Source: an uncultured bacterium (lineage in GTDB: Bacteria; Patescibacteriota; Gracilibacteria; Absconditabacterales; Absconditicoccaceae). From it: a stretch of DNA of 34,431 bases. The stretch spans positions 1 through 34,431 of the forward strand of contig CAMOEC010000035.1 in the NCBI GenBank assembly GCA_946611795.1, in the 5' to 3' direction. Under the pieces are notes generated by a model. That model had not been told where the DNA came from, searched no databases, and saw nothing but the letters and a program-made list of their open reading frames with translations. Shown here in pieces: positions 5,879-27,655 of this stretch (position 1 is the first letter of the stretch; each line of letters starts with the position of its first letter). The position numbers and the translations under genes were made by a program.

Positions 5879-6829
5879 CTATGCGTTTAAGCAAGAGCTG
5901 AATTTTGAAGCGTCAATTTTAAGCTCTTTAGCAATACTTTCTAATGATTCATTTGTGAATTTTCCATCAGCTTCAGCAGTAGCGAAAGCTTTATCTAGGA
6001 AGTTATAGTAGGCATCTGTTCCAGCAACTTCTCCTGCACATTCAACTCATTTAGCACCTAAGTCTGCTGTTTCATGGAAATCAAGAGGCATGTTTTTGAA
6101 TACAAGAGCAACATTAGCATCTTCTTCTACGATATTTTCAAGAGTTTTGCTGTCATAATGTCTTTGACAGAATGGACAAATAAGATCTGAATATTCTACA
6201 ATAACGATTTCTGCGTTATTGTTGTTGTTCTTATAGAAAACTCCATCAAGAAGTTTTGCTAATTGTGTTTCAGTAAGAGTTCCTGCATTACCCATATCAT
6301 CTGTTTTTGCTGAACCATCTCTAACAGCAGCAATAGCTTCTTCAAAGCTTGCTTTTGGATAAGCACCTCCAACTGCTTTATACATACGAGTTTTTGTATT
6401 AATAACAGCGTTTCCTGGTGTTCCGCTTAGTCCGAATAATTTGTATGCTTCATCAGCATTTCAATTCCATTCTTCATCTGAAGGATTAACTGGTTCTCCA
6501 GAAGCTGCTTCTGAAGTTTCTTCACTTTCTCCTCACATACTAGCAATTTGTTGCTCGATTTGAGTATTAATGTTTTCAATATACTCGTCTGTCATAACAG
6601 CATCGTATACTTTGTTGAAGTTTTCATCAGATCAATAAGACATTTCGATAATTAATTTGTGCATTTGATCTAATGCTTGTTCTACTTTTCCTAATTTAGA
6701 ATTCATACAAAATCAAAGACAAGCTCCTCAGATAAGTGTACAAATAACTAGGATAAGTGTTCGTAGTCATGTTGAACCACAGCAACCGCAATTACATTTG
6801 CAATCGCAACTTTTTTCTTTCTTTTCCAT
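5879..6829 (-). CDS. membrane-anchored DsbA-like oxidoreductase, apparently permuted
   Basis: 316 residues. Short cysteine-rich cytosolic N-terminus (CDCKCNCGCC), one transmembrane helix at about residues 20-40 (LRTLILVICTLIGGACLGFC), then a Glu/Ser-rich linker and an outward-facing thioredoxin fold. The active site C218-P-F-C221 lies in VEYSDLICPFCQRHY, as in DsbA/DSBA-like thiol oxidoreductases. The segment carrying the cis-proline (FGLSGTPGNAVIN, P138) and its following helix (KASFEEAIAAV) lies before the CPFC, although in DsbA it comes after the helical insert. The protein ends right at KFSSCLNA, where a normal DsbA would continue into GTP. This indicates a circular permutation. It probably forms or shuffles disulfides in exported proteins. 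It is followed by a UUCG terminator, and the one-TM gene at 6861 sits 31 bases upstream. Confidence 0.85.
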
Positions 6830-6860: not shown

Positions 6861-7232
6861 TTATTCTTGAGGAATTTCTTCCGTTTCATGAAGTTGTTTT
6901 TCAAGGTCATTTATTTCATTTTCAATATATTCTTTGTATTCTTGGCTTCAATAAATGGTATTTAGTCTTGTATAATTTTCAGTTCCTCAATTATATAATA
7001 GTGTCCAATTATTCATTTGGTTGAGTTTCTTGATTATTATAATTGATAGAATAAGGTTTGTTAATAGTATTACGAAACCTATAATTTTTATACATAATTT
7101 GTAATTAATCTTTGGTATGTCGGGTAGTTCGATTTTAATTTCTTTTTTAGTACTAGTTCTTTTTGTTGTTCTTTGTTTGGTCTTTCATTCTCTCACTTTC
7201 CCTGCATTTTCTTTGTCTTTTTTTAAAGGCAT
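6861..7232 (-). CDS. unknown single-pass membrane protein
   Basis: 123 residues. Lys/Thr-rich basic N-terminus (about 45 residues, ending in IKIELPDIPKIN), one hydrophobic helix at about 50-75 (CIKIIGFVILLTNLILSIIII), then an acidic Glu-rich coiled-coil tail to EIPQE and TAA. The basic N-terminus suggests it stays in the cytosol with the tail outside. It precedes the DsbA-like gene by 31 bases on the same strand, so the two may be one operon. I recognise no family. A FtsL/DivIC-like single-pass division protein would fit the size and topology (basic tail, TM, coiled coil), but no diagnostic residue supports it. Confidence 0.7.
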
Positions 7233-7508: not shown

Positions 7509-9698
7509 ATGAAAAACCTCTTTTTGTATGCTGCATTCATTCTTTGATGAATGTGTATCATTCCTATGTCAGCTTCTGCTAGCTGTCAGGATATTCGTTT
7601 CTCTGACGGAAGTCGTTTTTGTTTTGATATTAAGAGAATTAACTCTTCAACTTTTGAAGCTCAAGTTAGTTCTAAATCAACATCTTCTTCAATCTCTTGT
7701 AATTTGACATTACCAGATAATAGATCTGTATCACTAAATAATTGTGAATGAAGATTTAACTATGACGGAAATGATATTGGACCAATTCATTTAAGAGCAT
7801 CTTGAAGAACAACATATGATTTGTTAACAAATTATGATTTTAGAAATTGAACTTTTGACGGATATTATAGTTCATATAATTCTTCTAGTTCTTATTATTA
7901 TAATGACTATTATCCTGAAATTAGTTATGTTTCTGACTCAAGACCAGATAGAGATGAATGGATTGATGTAACATTGAAAGTTAAAAGGAATAATTCATCT
8001 TATGATTATGACTGAAGAGTTGATTTTTATGTTGAAAGATATAATTGAGGTTCTTGGTCAAGAGCTTCAAGTTATGAATATGATTTAGATAAAACATCTT
8101 ATACTTTCTCTCGTTCAGATTGGTGAGAAGTTAAATTGTATAATTTGTTAAGATTTAGAGAATCATGAGAATATAGATTAGTTGCAGAATTACGTGATAG
8201 TTCATCTAATACATATGAAACATTTAATGTTGGTGGATATAGTTCAAGTAGTAGTTCTTCTTCATCATCATATAATGCAAGAGAAATCTCTGTTTATTCA
8301 ACTTCTCCATCAAATCCTTCAACTTATGAATGGGTTGATGTAACTATTAGAGCTATGGCAAGTAATTGAAATATTGCAAGTAATTATAATAAAAGAGTTA
8401 AGATTGAAGTTCAAGAATATAGAAATGGATCTTGGAGAACTGCTGAATTCTCAAATTATGATTTAAGCCAAGAATCTTATACATTCTCAACATCAGATGA
8501 TTGAAGAAAAACATTTAATTCATTAGTTAGATTTAGAAAAACTTGAGAATATAGATTAAAATTCACTGAAGAATATGATAGTTCTGTTTATGGTACAAAA
8601 ACTATTAATGTTGATTACACATCTGATAATTACTACAATAATTATAATAACTACAGTTCAAGCTCTTCATATAATGCAAAAGAATTATCAGTATATTCTA
8701 TTTCATCAACAAATCCTTCAACTTATCAATGGGTTAATGTAACATTAAGAGCGTTAACAAATAACTGAAGTGTTGCAAGTAATTATAATAAAAGAGTAAG
8801 AATTGAAGTACAAGAGTATAGAAATGGAACATGGAGAAGTGCTAGTTCTTCAGATTATGATTTAGATAAAACATATTATACCTTCTCAACATCAGATAAT
8901 GGAAGTAAAACATTTAATTCATTAGTAAGATTCAGAACATCTTGAGAATTTAGATTAAAGTTTACAGAAGATAATGATAGTTCTGTATATGGAACAAGAA
9001 CAATAAATGTTGGCTATTCAAATTCTTATAATTCATCTAGTAGTTATAGTTCTTCATATAGTGCAAGAGAATTGTCTGTATATTCTGTTTCATCAACAAA
9101 TCCTTCAACTAATCAATGGGTTAATGTAACATTAAGAGCAATGGCAAATAATGGAAATATCGCTGGTAACTATAATAAAAGAGTAAGAATTGAAGTACAA
9201 GAATATAGAAATGGATCTTGGAGAAGCGCTAGTTCTTCAGATTATGATTTGGATAGAACATATTATACCTTCTCAACATCAGATAATGGAAGTAAAACAT
9301 TTACATCATTAGTAAGATTCAGAACACCTTGAGAATTTAGATTAAAGTTTACAGAAGATAATGATAGTTCTGTATATGGAACAAGAACTTTTAATGTATG
9401 TGGTAGTAGTTATTATTATAATAGTTCCTCTCGTTATTATTATTCATATGGAAATTTCTCTGATAATGAATTGAAGAAAATTAGAGCAGTATATGATATT
9501 TGGGATAATGTTATTTCAGCATTGGAAAGAGATTATCCAAGATTAAGAAATAGCTCATCATGGAGAAGTAGATCTGATACTTTCAAAAGAAATATGAAAG
9601 ATGTATTAGCTGATAATCGTTCTTCATCATTTAGAGATTGGTCTGATTTCTATAACTGATTTATGGATTGGTTAAGATATACAACAGAAACTAGATAA
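7509..9698 (+). CDS. secreted Ser/Tyr-rich repeat protein
   Basis: 729 residues with a signal peptide (MKNLFLYAAF..., cleavage expected after SASA) and a small N-terminal beta domain with a few cysteines. Four tandem beta-sandwich-like modules of about 120-133 residues follow, each with WVDVT or WVNVTLRA, KRVRIEVQEYRNGSWR, YTFSTSD and SLVRFR motifs. Ser/Tyr/Asn-rich linkers separate them. A helical C-terminal domain of about 80 residues starts near 9460 (NELKKIRAVYDIWDNV) and ends TETR before TAA. The modules look like Ig-like or jelly-roll adhesion domains, and modules 3 and 4 are nearly identical in DNA. No sorting motif or membrane anchor is seen, so it may be released or held by the C-terminal domain. 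Its own promoter and terminator make it monocistronic. The family is not recognised; a surface adhesin is an inference. Confidence 0.85.
7905..9405 (+). repeat. four tandem in-frame modules within the surface protein
   Basis: Module boundaries fall near 7905, 8271, 8670 and 9057, giving spacings of 399 and 387 bases for the last copies. Modules 3 and 4 share long identical stretches, including the codons for YNKRVRIEVQEYRNG, pointing to recent duplication. Module 1 is the most diverged. Confidence 0.8.
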
Positions 9699-22299: not shown

Positions 22300-22425
22300 T
22301 ATATAATTATAATTAAATTGTACTTATGTAAAGTGTTTTTTAGCGCATTACCTTTGACAATCTTCTTTATTTTAATAAAAATTTAGTGATTATTAAGTTT
22401 TTTAGTTGTATTGCTTCGTTGAAAT

Positions 22426-22454
22426 TTGACAAATCCCCTTAAAAAGGGTAAAAT
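22426..22454 (+). promoter_or_regulatory. strong sigma-70 promoter of the giant surface gene
   Basis: TTGACA (22426-22431), an exact 17-base spacer and TAAAAT (22449-22454), 33 bases before the ATG. The spacer contains a small CCCTT...AAGGG inverted repeat. Confidence 0.75.
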
Positions 22455-22486
22455 ATATCAGTCTTTTAATCCCTATTTTTTGCCTG

Positions 22487-25400
22487 ATGCAATCCCAGAA
22501 AAAAATAAAAAGTATAAAAAATAAGTTAATGTATTTGGCTTGTTTATCTGTACTTGTTTTTTCTTTTGTTTTCTATCTATATTCTGTTTCTGGTTCTGTT
22601 TTTCTTGCAAAGGCTGCTGGTGGTATTACCTATGGGGCAAAAGAAACTAATGCGAATATATATTGAGATGATGACTCGAGAAATGGTTTTTTATATAAGG
22701 AAATTGTTGTTTCAGATGGTTCGAGTTCTTTCACTTTAATGGATCGTAATCTTTGAGCTAAAGCAGCTTGGGATTGAGTAACAATTGTGGATGATCCTTC
22801 TAATTATGATACGGATAATGATTATTATGGTTATTATTATCAATGGTGAAATATTTGGTGATTTTCTTCAAAGACAATAAGATGAGATAGTTGAAAAGTG
22901 AATACAACATCTACGCCATCGAATTATTCATCAACTAAATGGAGTGTAAGAAACTCATGGAATTCTTCAAATGGTGATTTGTGGTGAGATGTAACTGATT
23001 CTCAACCAGCAAGGCGCTGACCATGTCCTGTTTGATGGCATGTTCCAACGCATGATGAGTGGGTATCTATTTATGATACATGGAATAATTCTGAAAACAA
23101 ATCGACAGGTGATTCGGTTACAATGAATTTTGCTAAAGATTTAAGGCTTCCTTTTGCTGGTTACCGTAATCAGACTAATCTTCAATTCGGTCGTCGTTGA
23201 GAATATGGATATTATTGGTCTTCTTCTCGTTCTAATAGTAATCAGTCTGCTCATGATTTTATTTTTAGTTTGTCAACTTTTAATCTTGATCATTCGGACT
23301 ATCGTTCTTTAGGAGCTCCAGTTCGTTGTCTAAAAAATAGTTCTTTAATTCAAACTTATACTGTGGCTTTTGATAGTAAATGATGAAATCAAATAGCGAG
23401 TCAAGATGTTAGAGAATGAGAATTGGTTACTAAGCCTCAAAATCCTACGAAAGTCTGAACAAATTTTATTAGCTGGAATACAATAGATTGAAAAGAATTT
23501 GATTTTAAGTTTCCTATTATTCAGAATATTACTCTTTATGCAAAATGGGAATGAGAGTGAGATGAAACTCTTAAAGATGAGGATAATTATTTATTAACAG
23601 CAGACTGAGTTGTCGTGACTTGAGTTGCTAATACTATTGAATATCTTACTTCGTTATATTTATATGTAACGGATCCATATGCATCTACTTCTGTTGAGTT
23701 GAAGTATGATGAAAATTTAAATGCCTTATTAATTAATTCTCCTATTAATGCAAATGCTATGGGTATTTGATTTAATAATTTCTGAGAGTGAATTGTTGGT
23801 AGTGTATCAATTTGATGATCTTGAAATGTCTTTAGAATAAGAAGTCAAGAAGTCTATAATGATTATGGAGATTATACTTGAACAAGGAATGGAAAAAATG
23901 ACAGTGCTGTTGGTATTTGATGAGAGAATAATAGGCCAAGTGCTGCATGAGGTGTTATTGTTTGATGAAAGAATAATACTGTTTCATTTACTGATTCAAC
24001 TATGGTTTGATGAATAGATAGTTCTGTTGGTTGACACAATTCGGTTTTCTTGTGATCAAGGAATAGTTCTTTAAATGTGCAGGATTGGAATTCAATTGAT
24101 ATGTGAACTCATAATCGTGGTGATAAATTTACTTATTTAATTTGAAGTTGAATTGATACTCATGCGCGTTGAACTTCTTGGGCTTTTACTGTAAATGGTG
24201 TATTTGCATGGTCTCCTGATGAAAAATGATTCCCGTTGTTTTGATGAGGTTTATGATGACAGCAATGATTTTATATTAATGCAAAAAATGGTTTTTGATT
24301 AAATACATCAACTCCAAGATTGACTTTTGATTTTAGATCATGATGACCATTGAAAGTTACTAAAACTGATTGAATTCAAAATAATTCATTAATATTTAGT
24401 AAGCGAGATTCAAATCCTATTACCTGCTGGGATAGAGGTCAAACAGTATTTTTCCGCTGAACAATGGCTTATGTTCAGAGTGGTGGTATTGGTTCTTTTT
24501 GTTGATGTAATGGGTCGTATTGGATGCCTTTGTCAGCAAATGCAGTTGAACAATCTTTGTGTGCTGAAGCTAATATAAATGCAAGAGATTGTGATTGAGC
24601 AGAGATACTTAATAATGTAATATTTCATACATGAACTAAATGAGCTGCAAGATGGGATGAAAATGCTAATGATTGAAAATGAGCTTGGATTAATTTGAAT
24701 TGGACATATATGTGAGTTCCAAGTCTTTTGTCTGGTGATATAAGAGAGTGCTCATATACTTGTGCTGTTTGATATCATCCTAATAATAAGAGTGCTAAAT
24801 GATGGTTTACGTGAGATTGTGTACCATGTGATGAGTTAACTGGTTGACAGTATGTTACGCCATGAACTTGAGTAAATGATTGTGAGTTTAGATGTAATGG
24901 TTGATATAAATATGATAAGTGGGCAGAAAAAAAGGCTGATAGATGTACTCCTTGTAAGGCTTGAGAATGGACTCCAAATTTAAATCAGTTTTCTAAGTGT
25001 AATATTTGTAAATTGCCAAATTGAGTATCTGCTCAATCTGAAACTTTAAGAGCTGGAATTATTTTTACTTGATGAGTTTTGTGGAATTGAACAACATGAA
25101 CATGAGAGCCTTATTTTAGAAAGTTTACTACTTTTGCTTCAACTGAAGATGGTTGTAAATTTGAGTGTGCTTCAGGATTTTATTTGTGATCTGGTTGAAC
25201 TACTTGTGTTGAATGTTGAATTTGAACATTTTCTAAATGAGGTAAAGATACTACTTGTTTCCCTTGTGAAAATATGGTGGAAAGAACAATTAAATTTAGT
25301 GTAACAGATGTTAATGGAAAATATTATGATGATGAAGTAAGAGTTTCTTGGTATACGACAAAATGAAAAAATTGATCAAAAAGTTGTGAATGGACATGTA

Positions 25401-27655
25401 ATCCAGGGGTTTGATTTGTTAAAGAATGAAATACTTGTAAATGTCCAGATGACTACCATTTAGAATTGGTCGGTGGACAACCTAAATGTATCTCAAATAT
25501 TGCTGATTTAGCTTGTACTTGAACACTTCCATGATCGCTAGCAATAAGATGATCTGCTATTGCAGAATGAGTTGCTGCTTGAACATTGACTGATAATGAT
25601 CGAGTAGCAAGAAATATTACATGGAAATATGCTGGTGATAATAAAGATCCAAAAACACTTAAAGCATGTGAGTGGACTTGTCCTGAAGATTATACTAAAG
25701 ATTGAAATAATTGTAAACCTCCTCAAATGTGAATTTGTGGTTCTGCTAATTGAAAAGTGGTTGATTCGTTAGATGATTCAAATCTATGTACAACTAATTT
25801 GTGACATGATTTTGTGTCATTAGATGAAGAAATTGAAATTAATTATTATTATAATGGAGTGTTCCAATTTTATCCAAAGCCTGGTTTGCCTTATTTTACT
25901 AATCCAGCAAAGTATTTTGCAATTTGGAAATGTAAATGATATAAATGAAAAGCAGAGTATAGTACAAATTGTTTTGCATATGTAAAGTGAAAAATGGAAA
26001 AGGCTCAATGTCCTGCTGTTCATCGGTCAAATGGTAATGCACAAGCAAAATGTATTTATAATTCTCCAGATAATTGTAAATCAAATCTTAATTGTCCTCC
26101 AATAATACCTGGTGCCCAATTGGATGTTATTAAGGTTCCTAGTATTAATTGGGATAATGTGTTGCCTCATTGATTGAAATGGACTTGCCCTGGTACATTT
26201 TGAATGCATACTGTTGAGTGTCATGATTGTGATGTGGATTATAGTTGGTGGACTTCGGAAAATGGATGTACAAAGACTGAAGTTATAACACCTTGTGATG
26301 GTACTCGTCCAAATGAAAGTGATCCTTTGCTTCTTATTGGAGATCATACTTATGTAAATAAATTTTACGATGTAGGTACTTGAGGATATAGACCATGAAT
26401 TATTAAATATCATAATATACCTGCTTGAAGTAATCCTGGTGCTTGTGAATACTCATGCCAAGCTGGTTCTCATTATTGTGGAAATAGGTGTTATTATGAC
26501 CCTAAGTGTTCGAATGGTCTTGAGTATGATTTATCATGAAATGCTGTTGATGGTACTTGTAGTGTGTGATATTCTGTCAATTTCCATACGTGAGCTGATG
26601 ATAAATATTATTGGTCTTGTCAAGAAGGTTGTCAGTCGGACCCTTGTTGATATACTTGATATTCGTGTCCAGAAGTTAATGTACATCATACTGTTTATGT
26701 TTGACCAAGGCATTGGTTAACTTCTGAGCCATCTGATAATCCTTTGTTTGCGAGTGAGGCAGCTGCACGTTGAGTACCTTGTTCTTTAGCTTGTGCTGAT
26801 GGTTTTGAATTATCTGATGGTGATTGTGTTAAAATTACATATTCATGTCCTAGTGAGCCAATTCCAGAACATTCAAGGCCTGTATGAGTAATGGATTGAT
26901 TAGAAGTTGAACCAATTTCAGGTAATGTCTTGTATGCTACTGAAGAAGCATGAAGATGAAAGCCTTGTGCTTATATATGTGATACTACACTTGGTTTTGA
27001 ATATGATGCTGAGACTGAATCGTGTGTAGAGAATGCTGAGTTACCTAAGTGTTGAGAACCTAATGGATGACAATGGAATTGGAGATCATCGCCACAATAT
27101 TGTGAAGAAGCTTTTTGAACAACTGATCTTGATGAATGTTTGGATTTAAAATGTGCTTATATCCATTGAAGAGGAACTGAAAATTATGATAAGTGTATGC
27201 AAAAAGGTATTTATAACTATTGTGAGGTTTGAGAATGGAAAAATTTTAATGTTGGTACTCAAGATGGTTTAAAAACTTGGGATTGTGTAAATTGAGATAA
27301 AGTAATTTCATGTAGTTCTTCTTGTACTCCATGAACGGATAATTATGATCCTTATTATTTATGTGCTGACGATAATGATGATTCGATTTATGTCAATTTG
27401 AATCATTCATTCTCATGGACCAATACTTCTCCGTGGTTAACGGTGACGAGGTCTTGGGCGTGATGAGTTAAAGATATGTGATATGTTCATTATGATGCTG
27501 CAGAAAATCCTAGTTCTAGTCCAAGAACATATACGGTAAAATTTGAAACAGATGATCCTAACTATTGTTCTAATTGGTCTCTTACATTAGTGCAGTGTTG
27601 AAAGGGTAAGAAGTGTAGTACTTCTAGATGAAATTGGACTTGTACGGATGAGTAA
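22487..27655 (+). CDS. giant mosaic Cys-rich surface protein
   Basis: 1722 residues, the largest gene here. In order it shows: an N-terminal hydrophobic segment/signal (about 17-45); a Fibrobacter-major-paralogous-like domain (about 80-285: LMDRNLGAKAAW, YYQWGNIW, CPVGWHVPTHDEW, DLRLPFAGYRN, YYWSSSRS, GAPVRCLKN); an InlB-type B repeat (290-358: YTVAFDSKGGNQIAS, then ITLYAKWE); and a beta-roll stretch at about 425-540 with YadA-head-like periodicity (VGIGGENN, VIVGGKNN, STMVGGIDSS). A tail-fibre-like link follows (FGLNTSTPRL), then over 1000 residues of Cys-rich modules with CxxC, C...C...C spacing and CxPG/CxxGY turns. Many glycines are TGA. A strong promoter precedes it, and a tail-collar gene follows 33 bases after. 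It probably acts in attachment. No membrane anchor is seen at the C-terminus, which ends GNWTCTDE. Confidence 0.9.

Follow-up and report, generated by a model that had tools for sequence, protein, structure and literature searches.

Circular permutants are easily made in the laboratory, whereas those seen in nature mostly go back to a single ancient event each. One natural case in the disulfide-forming pathway is that of VKOR and DsbB, where a four-helix bundle is circularly permuted and duplication/deletion has been proposed as the route (PMC4555120). It resembles the case considered here as a natural permutation within the same pathway, but it concerns the membrane partner, whose fold is different, and a single ancient split as opposed to repeated events. 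For DsbA itself, a circular permutant of the E. coli protein was engineered (Hennecke 1999) and its crystal structure is available as 1un2, as cited in PMC2213659 and PMC3281007; by its title, 1un2, that is, cpDsbA Q100T99, has a preserved global fold. In the engineered protein, as in ours, the helical insert is cut, the old termini are joined, and the cis-Pro half is followed by the CPFC half. However, the former was made in the laboratory from soluble periplasmic DsbA, whereas the latter is natural and membrane-anchored, is cut at loops of its own, and is joined by a natural linker. No prior report of a natural permuted DsbA was found in the open-licence literature searched. The original prediction, stating that no described permuted DsbA of this kind was known, agrees with this search as regards natural proteins, with the qualification that an engineered one was known already.

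The window, that is, the entire analysed stretch of 34,431 nucleotides, contains at 5879..6829 on the minus strand a gene encoding a circularly permuted membrane-anchored DsbA-type protein, as follows from the reading frame and from relatives with the same order of halves. This is a real ORF of 316 amino acids in code 25, with seven in-frame TGA codons read as glycine and a TAG stop; the host organism decodes TGA as glycine. All features of the protein listed below are on the minus strand. The cysteine-rich N-terminus, MEKKEKSCDCKCNCGCCGS (6773..6829), is predicted from the sequence to be on the cytosolic side. Its cluster CDCKCNCGCC lies just before the TM helix and is similar in the canonical proteins L006 and L039 and in the neighbour of L041; metal binding or lipidation are possible roles. 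The predicted TM helix (approximately residues 20–42, 6704..6772) appears in the structural model as a helix at 20–32, with low confidence there. It is followed by the helical stalk (residues 43–104, 6518..6703) with the motif GGxENF..LY..SMGG at the same position as in the canonical orthologues.

The remaining part of the protein is formed by two halves of a DsbA domain. The former C-terminal half (residues 117–171, 6317..6481) comprises the helix preceding the cis-Pro loop, GTPGN, a beta hairpin and the last helix. The motif GTPGNAVIN starts at residue 136; the GTP loop itself (residues 136–138, 6416..6424), with P138 as the cis-proline, is invariant in the profile of canonical proteins, A2, and is conserved in the window protein and its relatives. 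Then comes the new linker between the former C- and N-termini, GSAKTDDMGNAG (approximately residues 172–183, 6281..6316), delineated by profile and sequence comparison. The former N-terminal half (residues 184–316, 5882..6280) contains a strand, the CPFC helix, the second strand and the helices of the insert as far as the third, where the protein ends. The redox motif CPFC occupies residues 218–221 (6167..6178). Thus GTPGNAVIN precedes CPFC, as was stated originally. Two details had to be corrected. The protein was said to end exactly where DsbA would enter GTP, but it ends about one helix (~20 residues) earlier, this helix having moved with the GTP half. The Asn-rich loop (201–205), taken for the join, is an ordinary loop before the CPFC strand, YVKGNENARFVIFEYSD in the canonical protein, and the true join is the linker at ~172–183.

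The closest comparison is with canonical DsbA-type proteins, also membrane-anchored, from the same family (e.g. L004 and L039; PF13462/PF01323). They share with the window protein the TM helix, the stalk, CPFC, the GTP loop, two further invariant cysteines and the upstream TM–stalk gene, but have the normal order of halves, in one protein. Most of these canonical orthologues have 260–370 amino acids, with the TM helix, the stalk, CPFC and the GTP cis-Pro loop in one chain.

Profile A2 was built from 29 canonical proteins. When the window protein is compared with it, residues 118–169 match profile positions 241–292 (E 7e-16), and residues 175–315 match positions 100–236 (E 9e-44; ORF numbering +2 N-terminal residues for both matches). 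The canonical order, the CPFC half followed by the cis-Pro half, is absent. The two halves make up one complete domain, each present once, with about four profile positions lost at the cut and no overlap, and the same holds for L002 and L003. The window protein is very probably a naturally circularly permuted thiol:disulfide oxidoreductase of the DsbA type, its function being assigned by similarity.

A search of 59 related genomes with the window protein yielded a single collinear match only in the window genus (three genomes). In nearly all others the segment corresponding to residues 178–315 comes first and that corresponding to ~120–170 after it, within one ORF. The GTP motif is situated at +112 to +122 residues relative to CxxC in the canonical relatives vs −82 in the three congeners. 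These three species are 54–75% identical to each other, have the same swapped order, and carry the gene on contigs of 34, 157 and 261 kb. All of them retain CPFC, GTP and two further cysteines, with a conservative CPYC in L002. By our reading of the search output, 41 of the 49 genomes surveyed in the family have at least one canonical gene, four have a permuted one, one has a fragment at a contig end, and three have none. Among viral contigs, no relative was found by the patterns tried.

The upstream neighbour of the gene (6861..7232, minus strand) encodes a paralogue consisting of a TM helix and a stalk, without the DsbA domain. Elsewhere in the family such a gene is likewise located upstream of canonical DsbA genes (e.g. 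it adjoins L041), which supports positional orthology of the window and canonical loci. The encoded protein is a possible stalk partner. In many genomes of the family, one or two TM–stalk genes are located ahead of the DsbA gene.

Standard annotation sees only a part of this domain. The Pfam profile PF13462 (Thioredoxin_4) scores 34.5 bits on the window protein against a cut-off of 23.2, but the match covers only profile positions 10–117 of 165, stopping at the end of the protein, which is the cut. The best NCBIfam match, a thioredoxin-like (seleno)lipoprotein family, is below the cut-off. In each genome of the window genus this is the sole PF13462 protein. In two permuted proteins described below, L154 and L084, Pfam independently shows the swap: PF01323 matches first, by its C-terminal part, and PF13462 after it, by its N-terminal part. 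Since the swapped order makes a DsbA look truncated to standard profiles, the inventory of disulfide formation in the Patescibacteria is affected.

The structure of the window protein was predicted by AlphaFold2 using an alignment of permuted proteins, natural B–A segments of tandem proteins (here A is the CPFC half and B the cis-Pro half), and separate halves of canonical relatives. The block-mean pLDDT is ~89–98 over residues 121–316, and the stalk helices are predicted as well. The order of elements is a helix, two strands with the cis-Pro motif (139–144 and 149–154), the last helix (159–170), the linker, a strand (208–214), the CPFC helix, a strand (240–246) and the helical insert; CPFC 218–221 is situated after strand 208–214, and the helix begins at 219. 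The strands of the model suggest one thioredoxin core, and not two separate thioredoxin folds, the outcome that the original prediction had named as contrary to it. Most likely the halves come together again as a normal DsbA domain, in which cis-Pro138 would be beside Cys218 and Cys221, the contacts between the halves resting on the thioredoxin prior, since canonical halves entered the alignment as separate rows.

The model, a confident single mixed domain, was compared with solved structures, as had been proposed. The engineered permutant 1un2 is among the collinear matches: it aligns with model residues 122–289 (Z 9.0, rmsd 3.3, 136 residues), spanning both halves in order. Most solved DsbA-type structures align mainly with residues ~170–316. 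As a control, the model of a canonical relative matches DsbA-type structures end to end, the best Z being 22.4. Among solved structures, those closest to the canonical relative, and to the window protein in its CPFC half, are 4n30 (DsbA2, Pseudomonas aeruginosa), 6eez (alpha-DsbA2, Wolbachia), 4xvw (ScsC) and 3gyk (S. pomeroyi), all of them, unlike the window protein, unpermuted. Thus the canonical orthologues from the same family, the Pfam cross-check in other permuted proteins, the model and the 1un2 match agree that the two halves are swapped, as had been suggested.

The same order could in principle serve a domain-swapped assembly (dimer or oligomer) in which each CPFC half is completed by the cis-Pro half of a neighbouring chain. 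The linker is short (~12 residues), the anchored stalk helices, if formed as predicted, could bring chains together, and ScsC and BcfH, DsbA-type proteins that are oligomeric, are among the structural matches. However, AlphaFold yields a confident domain from a single chain, 1un2 retains the global fold according to its title, and the linkers vary between permuted clades. We consider such swapping unlikely and favour the single-chain fold.

The cut positions were compared in the numbering of the canonical model, where the insert helices are 162–188, 196–205, 210–218 and 223–237. Nearly all permuted proteins, including those from other lineages considered below, are cut between ~187–195 and 191–201, in L167 the cut lies between 205 and 210, and in the window genus it lies between 218–219 and 222–223, again in an inter-helix loop of the insert. 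Hence every cut is in one of three consecutive loops between helices. Four cysteines are invariant in the canonical relatives: the motif pair C123 and C126, together with C171 and C216. The latter pair presumably corresponds to the C97/C146 disulfide of Wolbachia alpha-DsbA1, a putative equivalence. In the proteins cut in the first loop, the equivalents of C171 and C216 are on opposite sides of the cut, and thus a disulfide between them could staple the new ends.

A search with a permuted profile had been proposed in the original prediction. We constructed a junction profile, A4, covering the join from cis-Pro to CPFC. Most of its rows are canonical halves joined in silico in the swapped order, for searching only. 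A4 was applied to 338 genomes of the class and 380 genomes of the phylum. Full-length matches were observed in the window genus, in one genome of g4, a second genus of the family (L084), in 12 genomes of family f5, and in 22 genomes from 12 further families; two genomes of genus g18 bearing tandem proteins also match, as expected. Thus the order is conserved in the genus and recurs in other families. The ORFs behind the matches were read and proved to be single permuted domains behind a TM helix. One f5 locus, L100, is identical to a Peribacteria record. Permuted proteins are also present in WWE3, Woesebacteria, Colwellbacteria, Kaiserbacteria, Nomurabacteria, Komeilibacteria, Gottesmanbacteria, Kerfeldbacteria, Amesbacteria and Paceibacterota and, outside the Patescibacteria, in two archaea (Woesearchaeota and Diapherotrites) and one Chloroflexi bacterium. 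Some apparent matches were not counted: L175, L201, L203, L212, L231 and L247 are tandem multi-domain proteins, and L183 and L243 are canonical proteins with a stray GTP or GSP.

The gene for the L084 protein (genome G070, genus g4) and the canonical orthologous genes of G005, G071 and G067 have the same neighbours. Relative to the G005 protein, the N-terminus of L084 is collinear (24–117 to 1–93), followed by 151–232 matching 221–302 (68% identity) and 238–337 matching 115–214 (74% identity); overall, its blocks are 68–75% identical to the canonical orthologues in the swapped order. Hence L084 is a recent, within-genus permutation of an orthologous gene. It is so recent that in other members of the genus the unpermuted gene still occupies this chromosomal site. 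Together, this case and the repeated permutation of a well-studied enzyme type offer a natural experiment on the course of a permutation, on the loops that admit it, and on its consequences for a membrane-tethered enzyme.

The conserved synteny in G070 also bears on the explanation of the swapped order by misjoined or rearranged contigs, that is, by an assembly or binning artefact. The genomes are indeed drafts in many contigs. However, two single-contig genomes, G474 and G560, carry the swapped order, and the three species of the window genus share it on contigs of the lengths given above. The chance of an artefact is negligible, and we treat the order as genuine.

The number of permutation events was estimated from a maximum-likelihood tree that included 38 permuted proteins and 66 canonical ones, with the halves arranged in one order (188 columns, some long branches). 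The tree requires eight changes of order (bootstrap range 8–9), some of which could be reversals, and at least five changes are forced by well-supported branches. The AU test rejects a single clade of all permuted proteins (p-AU 0.00011), as well as a single clade of those remaining after removal of the window genus and L084 (p-AU 0.0016). Hence a single origin is rejected. Since the swap is found across distant lineages and one clade is rejected, natural circular permutation of DsbA is recurrent, having happened several independent times. This much is firm; with so short an alignment and a bootstrap that had not settled, the figure of at least five independent permutations is put forward with less confidence. 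Unlike the usual single ancient events, the permutation of DsbA is repeated, and one case is recent.

The ancestor of these proteins very probably had the architecture TM–stalk–CPFC half–cis-Pro half. In the window genus the thioredoxin-like domain was permuted so that the cis-Pro half came first; a new linker of ~12 residues arose and the termini moved to a loop within the helical insert, while the TM anchor and the stalk stayed in place. The genetic route was likely a tandem duplication of the domain, after which the CPFC half at the front and the cis-Pro half at the end were lost: an A–B–A–B protein without the first A and the last B is B–A. Tandem A–B–A–B and A–B–A–B–A–B proteins are present in genus g18 of the same family, and tandem DsbA-type proteins also occur in the Anaerolineae, Woesearchaeota and Myxococcales. 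In such proteins, too, a cis-Pro half comes before the CPFC half of the following domain, but a CPFC half opens the chain and a cis-Pro half closes it, every domain being whole. The g18 proteins, with two or three domains, are encoded at L031:1342-3696, L032:1908-3605 and L033:1702-3300; three-domain proteins were seen in the Anaerolineae (L175, L201, L212) and Myxococcales (L247).

A remnant of a second cis-Pro half was sought downstream of the window gene. The stop codon is immediately followed by a terminator-like hairpin, and there is no such ORF among those listed in the window. As no direct remnant of a duplication was found, relocation of a segment may have occurred instead; the tandem duplication is still the likely route.

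The tandem arrays of g18 and the Anaerolineae suggest one more reading, in which they are the origin and the window protein is a worn-down remnant of two DsbA domains, devoid of catalysis. However, CPFC, GTP and the two further cysteines are conserved in the three congeners, the halves sum to a whole domain without overlap, the gene is the only one of the DsbA type in the genus, and permuted genes adjoin VKOR in several genomes. A degenerate tandem is thus quite improbable.

Combining these considerations, we tentatively suggest that DsbA may have been permuted at least five independent times in the Patescibacteria (plus DPANN archaea and Chloroflexi), always at one of three consecutive loops of the insert and via tandem-duplication intermediates. 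The permuted forms might have been kept since permutation attaches the membrane tether to the helical insert, which contacts the substrate and the re-oxidant, and no longer to the edge of the thioredoxin core. This scenario as a whole is somewhat less probable than its opposite.

The permuted protein would oxidise cysteines of proteins outside the membrane, an activity suggested by its retained motifs: CPxC and GTP are present in the permuted sets inspected. It would be re-oxidised by a membrane partner, possibly VKOR in some permuted relatives. VKOR is the usual re-oxidant of DsbA, and VKOR–DsbA pairs are established. In four genomes of family f69 (L154–L157) the VKOR gene is directly downstream of the permuted gene, as expected for a DsbA re-oxidised by VKOR, and in L163 and L221 it is close to it. 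VKOR HMM matches above the cut-off were obtained in G474, G423 and G549. With curated models, which divergent forms may escape, no VKOR, DsbB or DsbD-TM match was found in the window genus (G000–G002), and most other tested genomes of the family have no VKOR or DsbB match. In G549 (L163) a second DsbA-like gene (C1:11577-12032) is located between the permuted gene and VKOR.

Two other genes of the window encode secreted-looking proteins. The gene at 7509-9698 (plus strand), divergent from the TM–stalk gene, encodes a Ser/Asn/Tyr-rich protein of 729 amino acids with internal repeats. The gene at 22406-27655 (plus strand) encodes a protein of 1749 amino acids with 79 cysteines, many of them in repeats; at a guess, it is a plausible substrate of the disulfide machinery.
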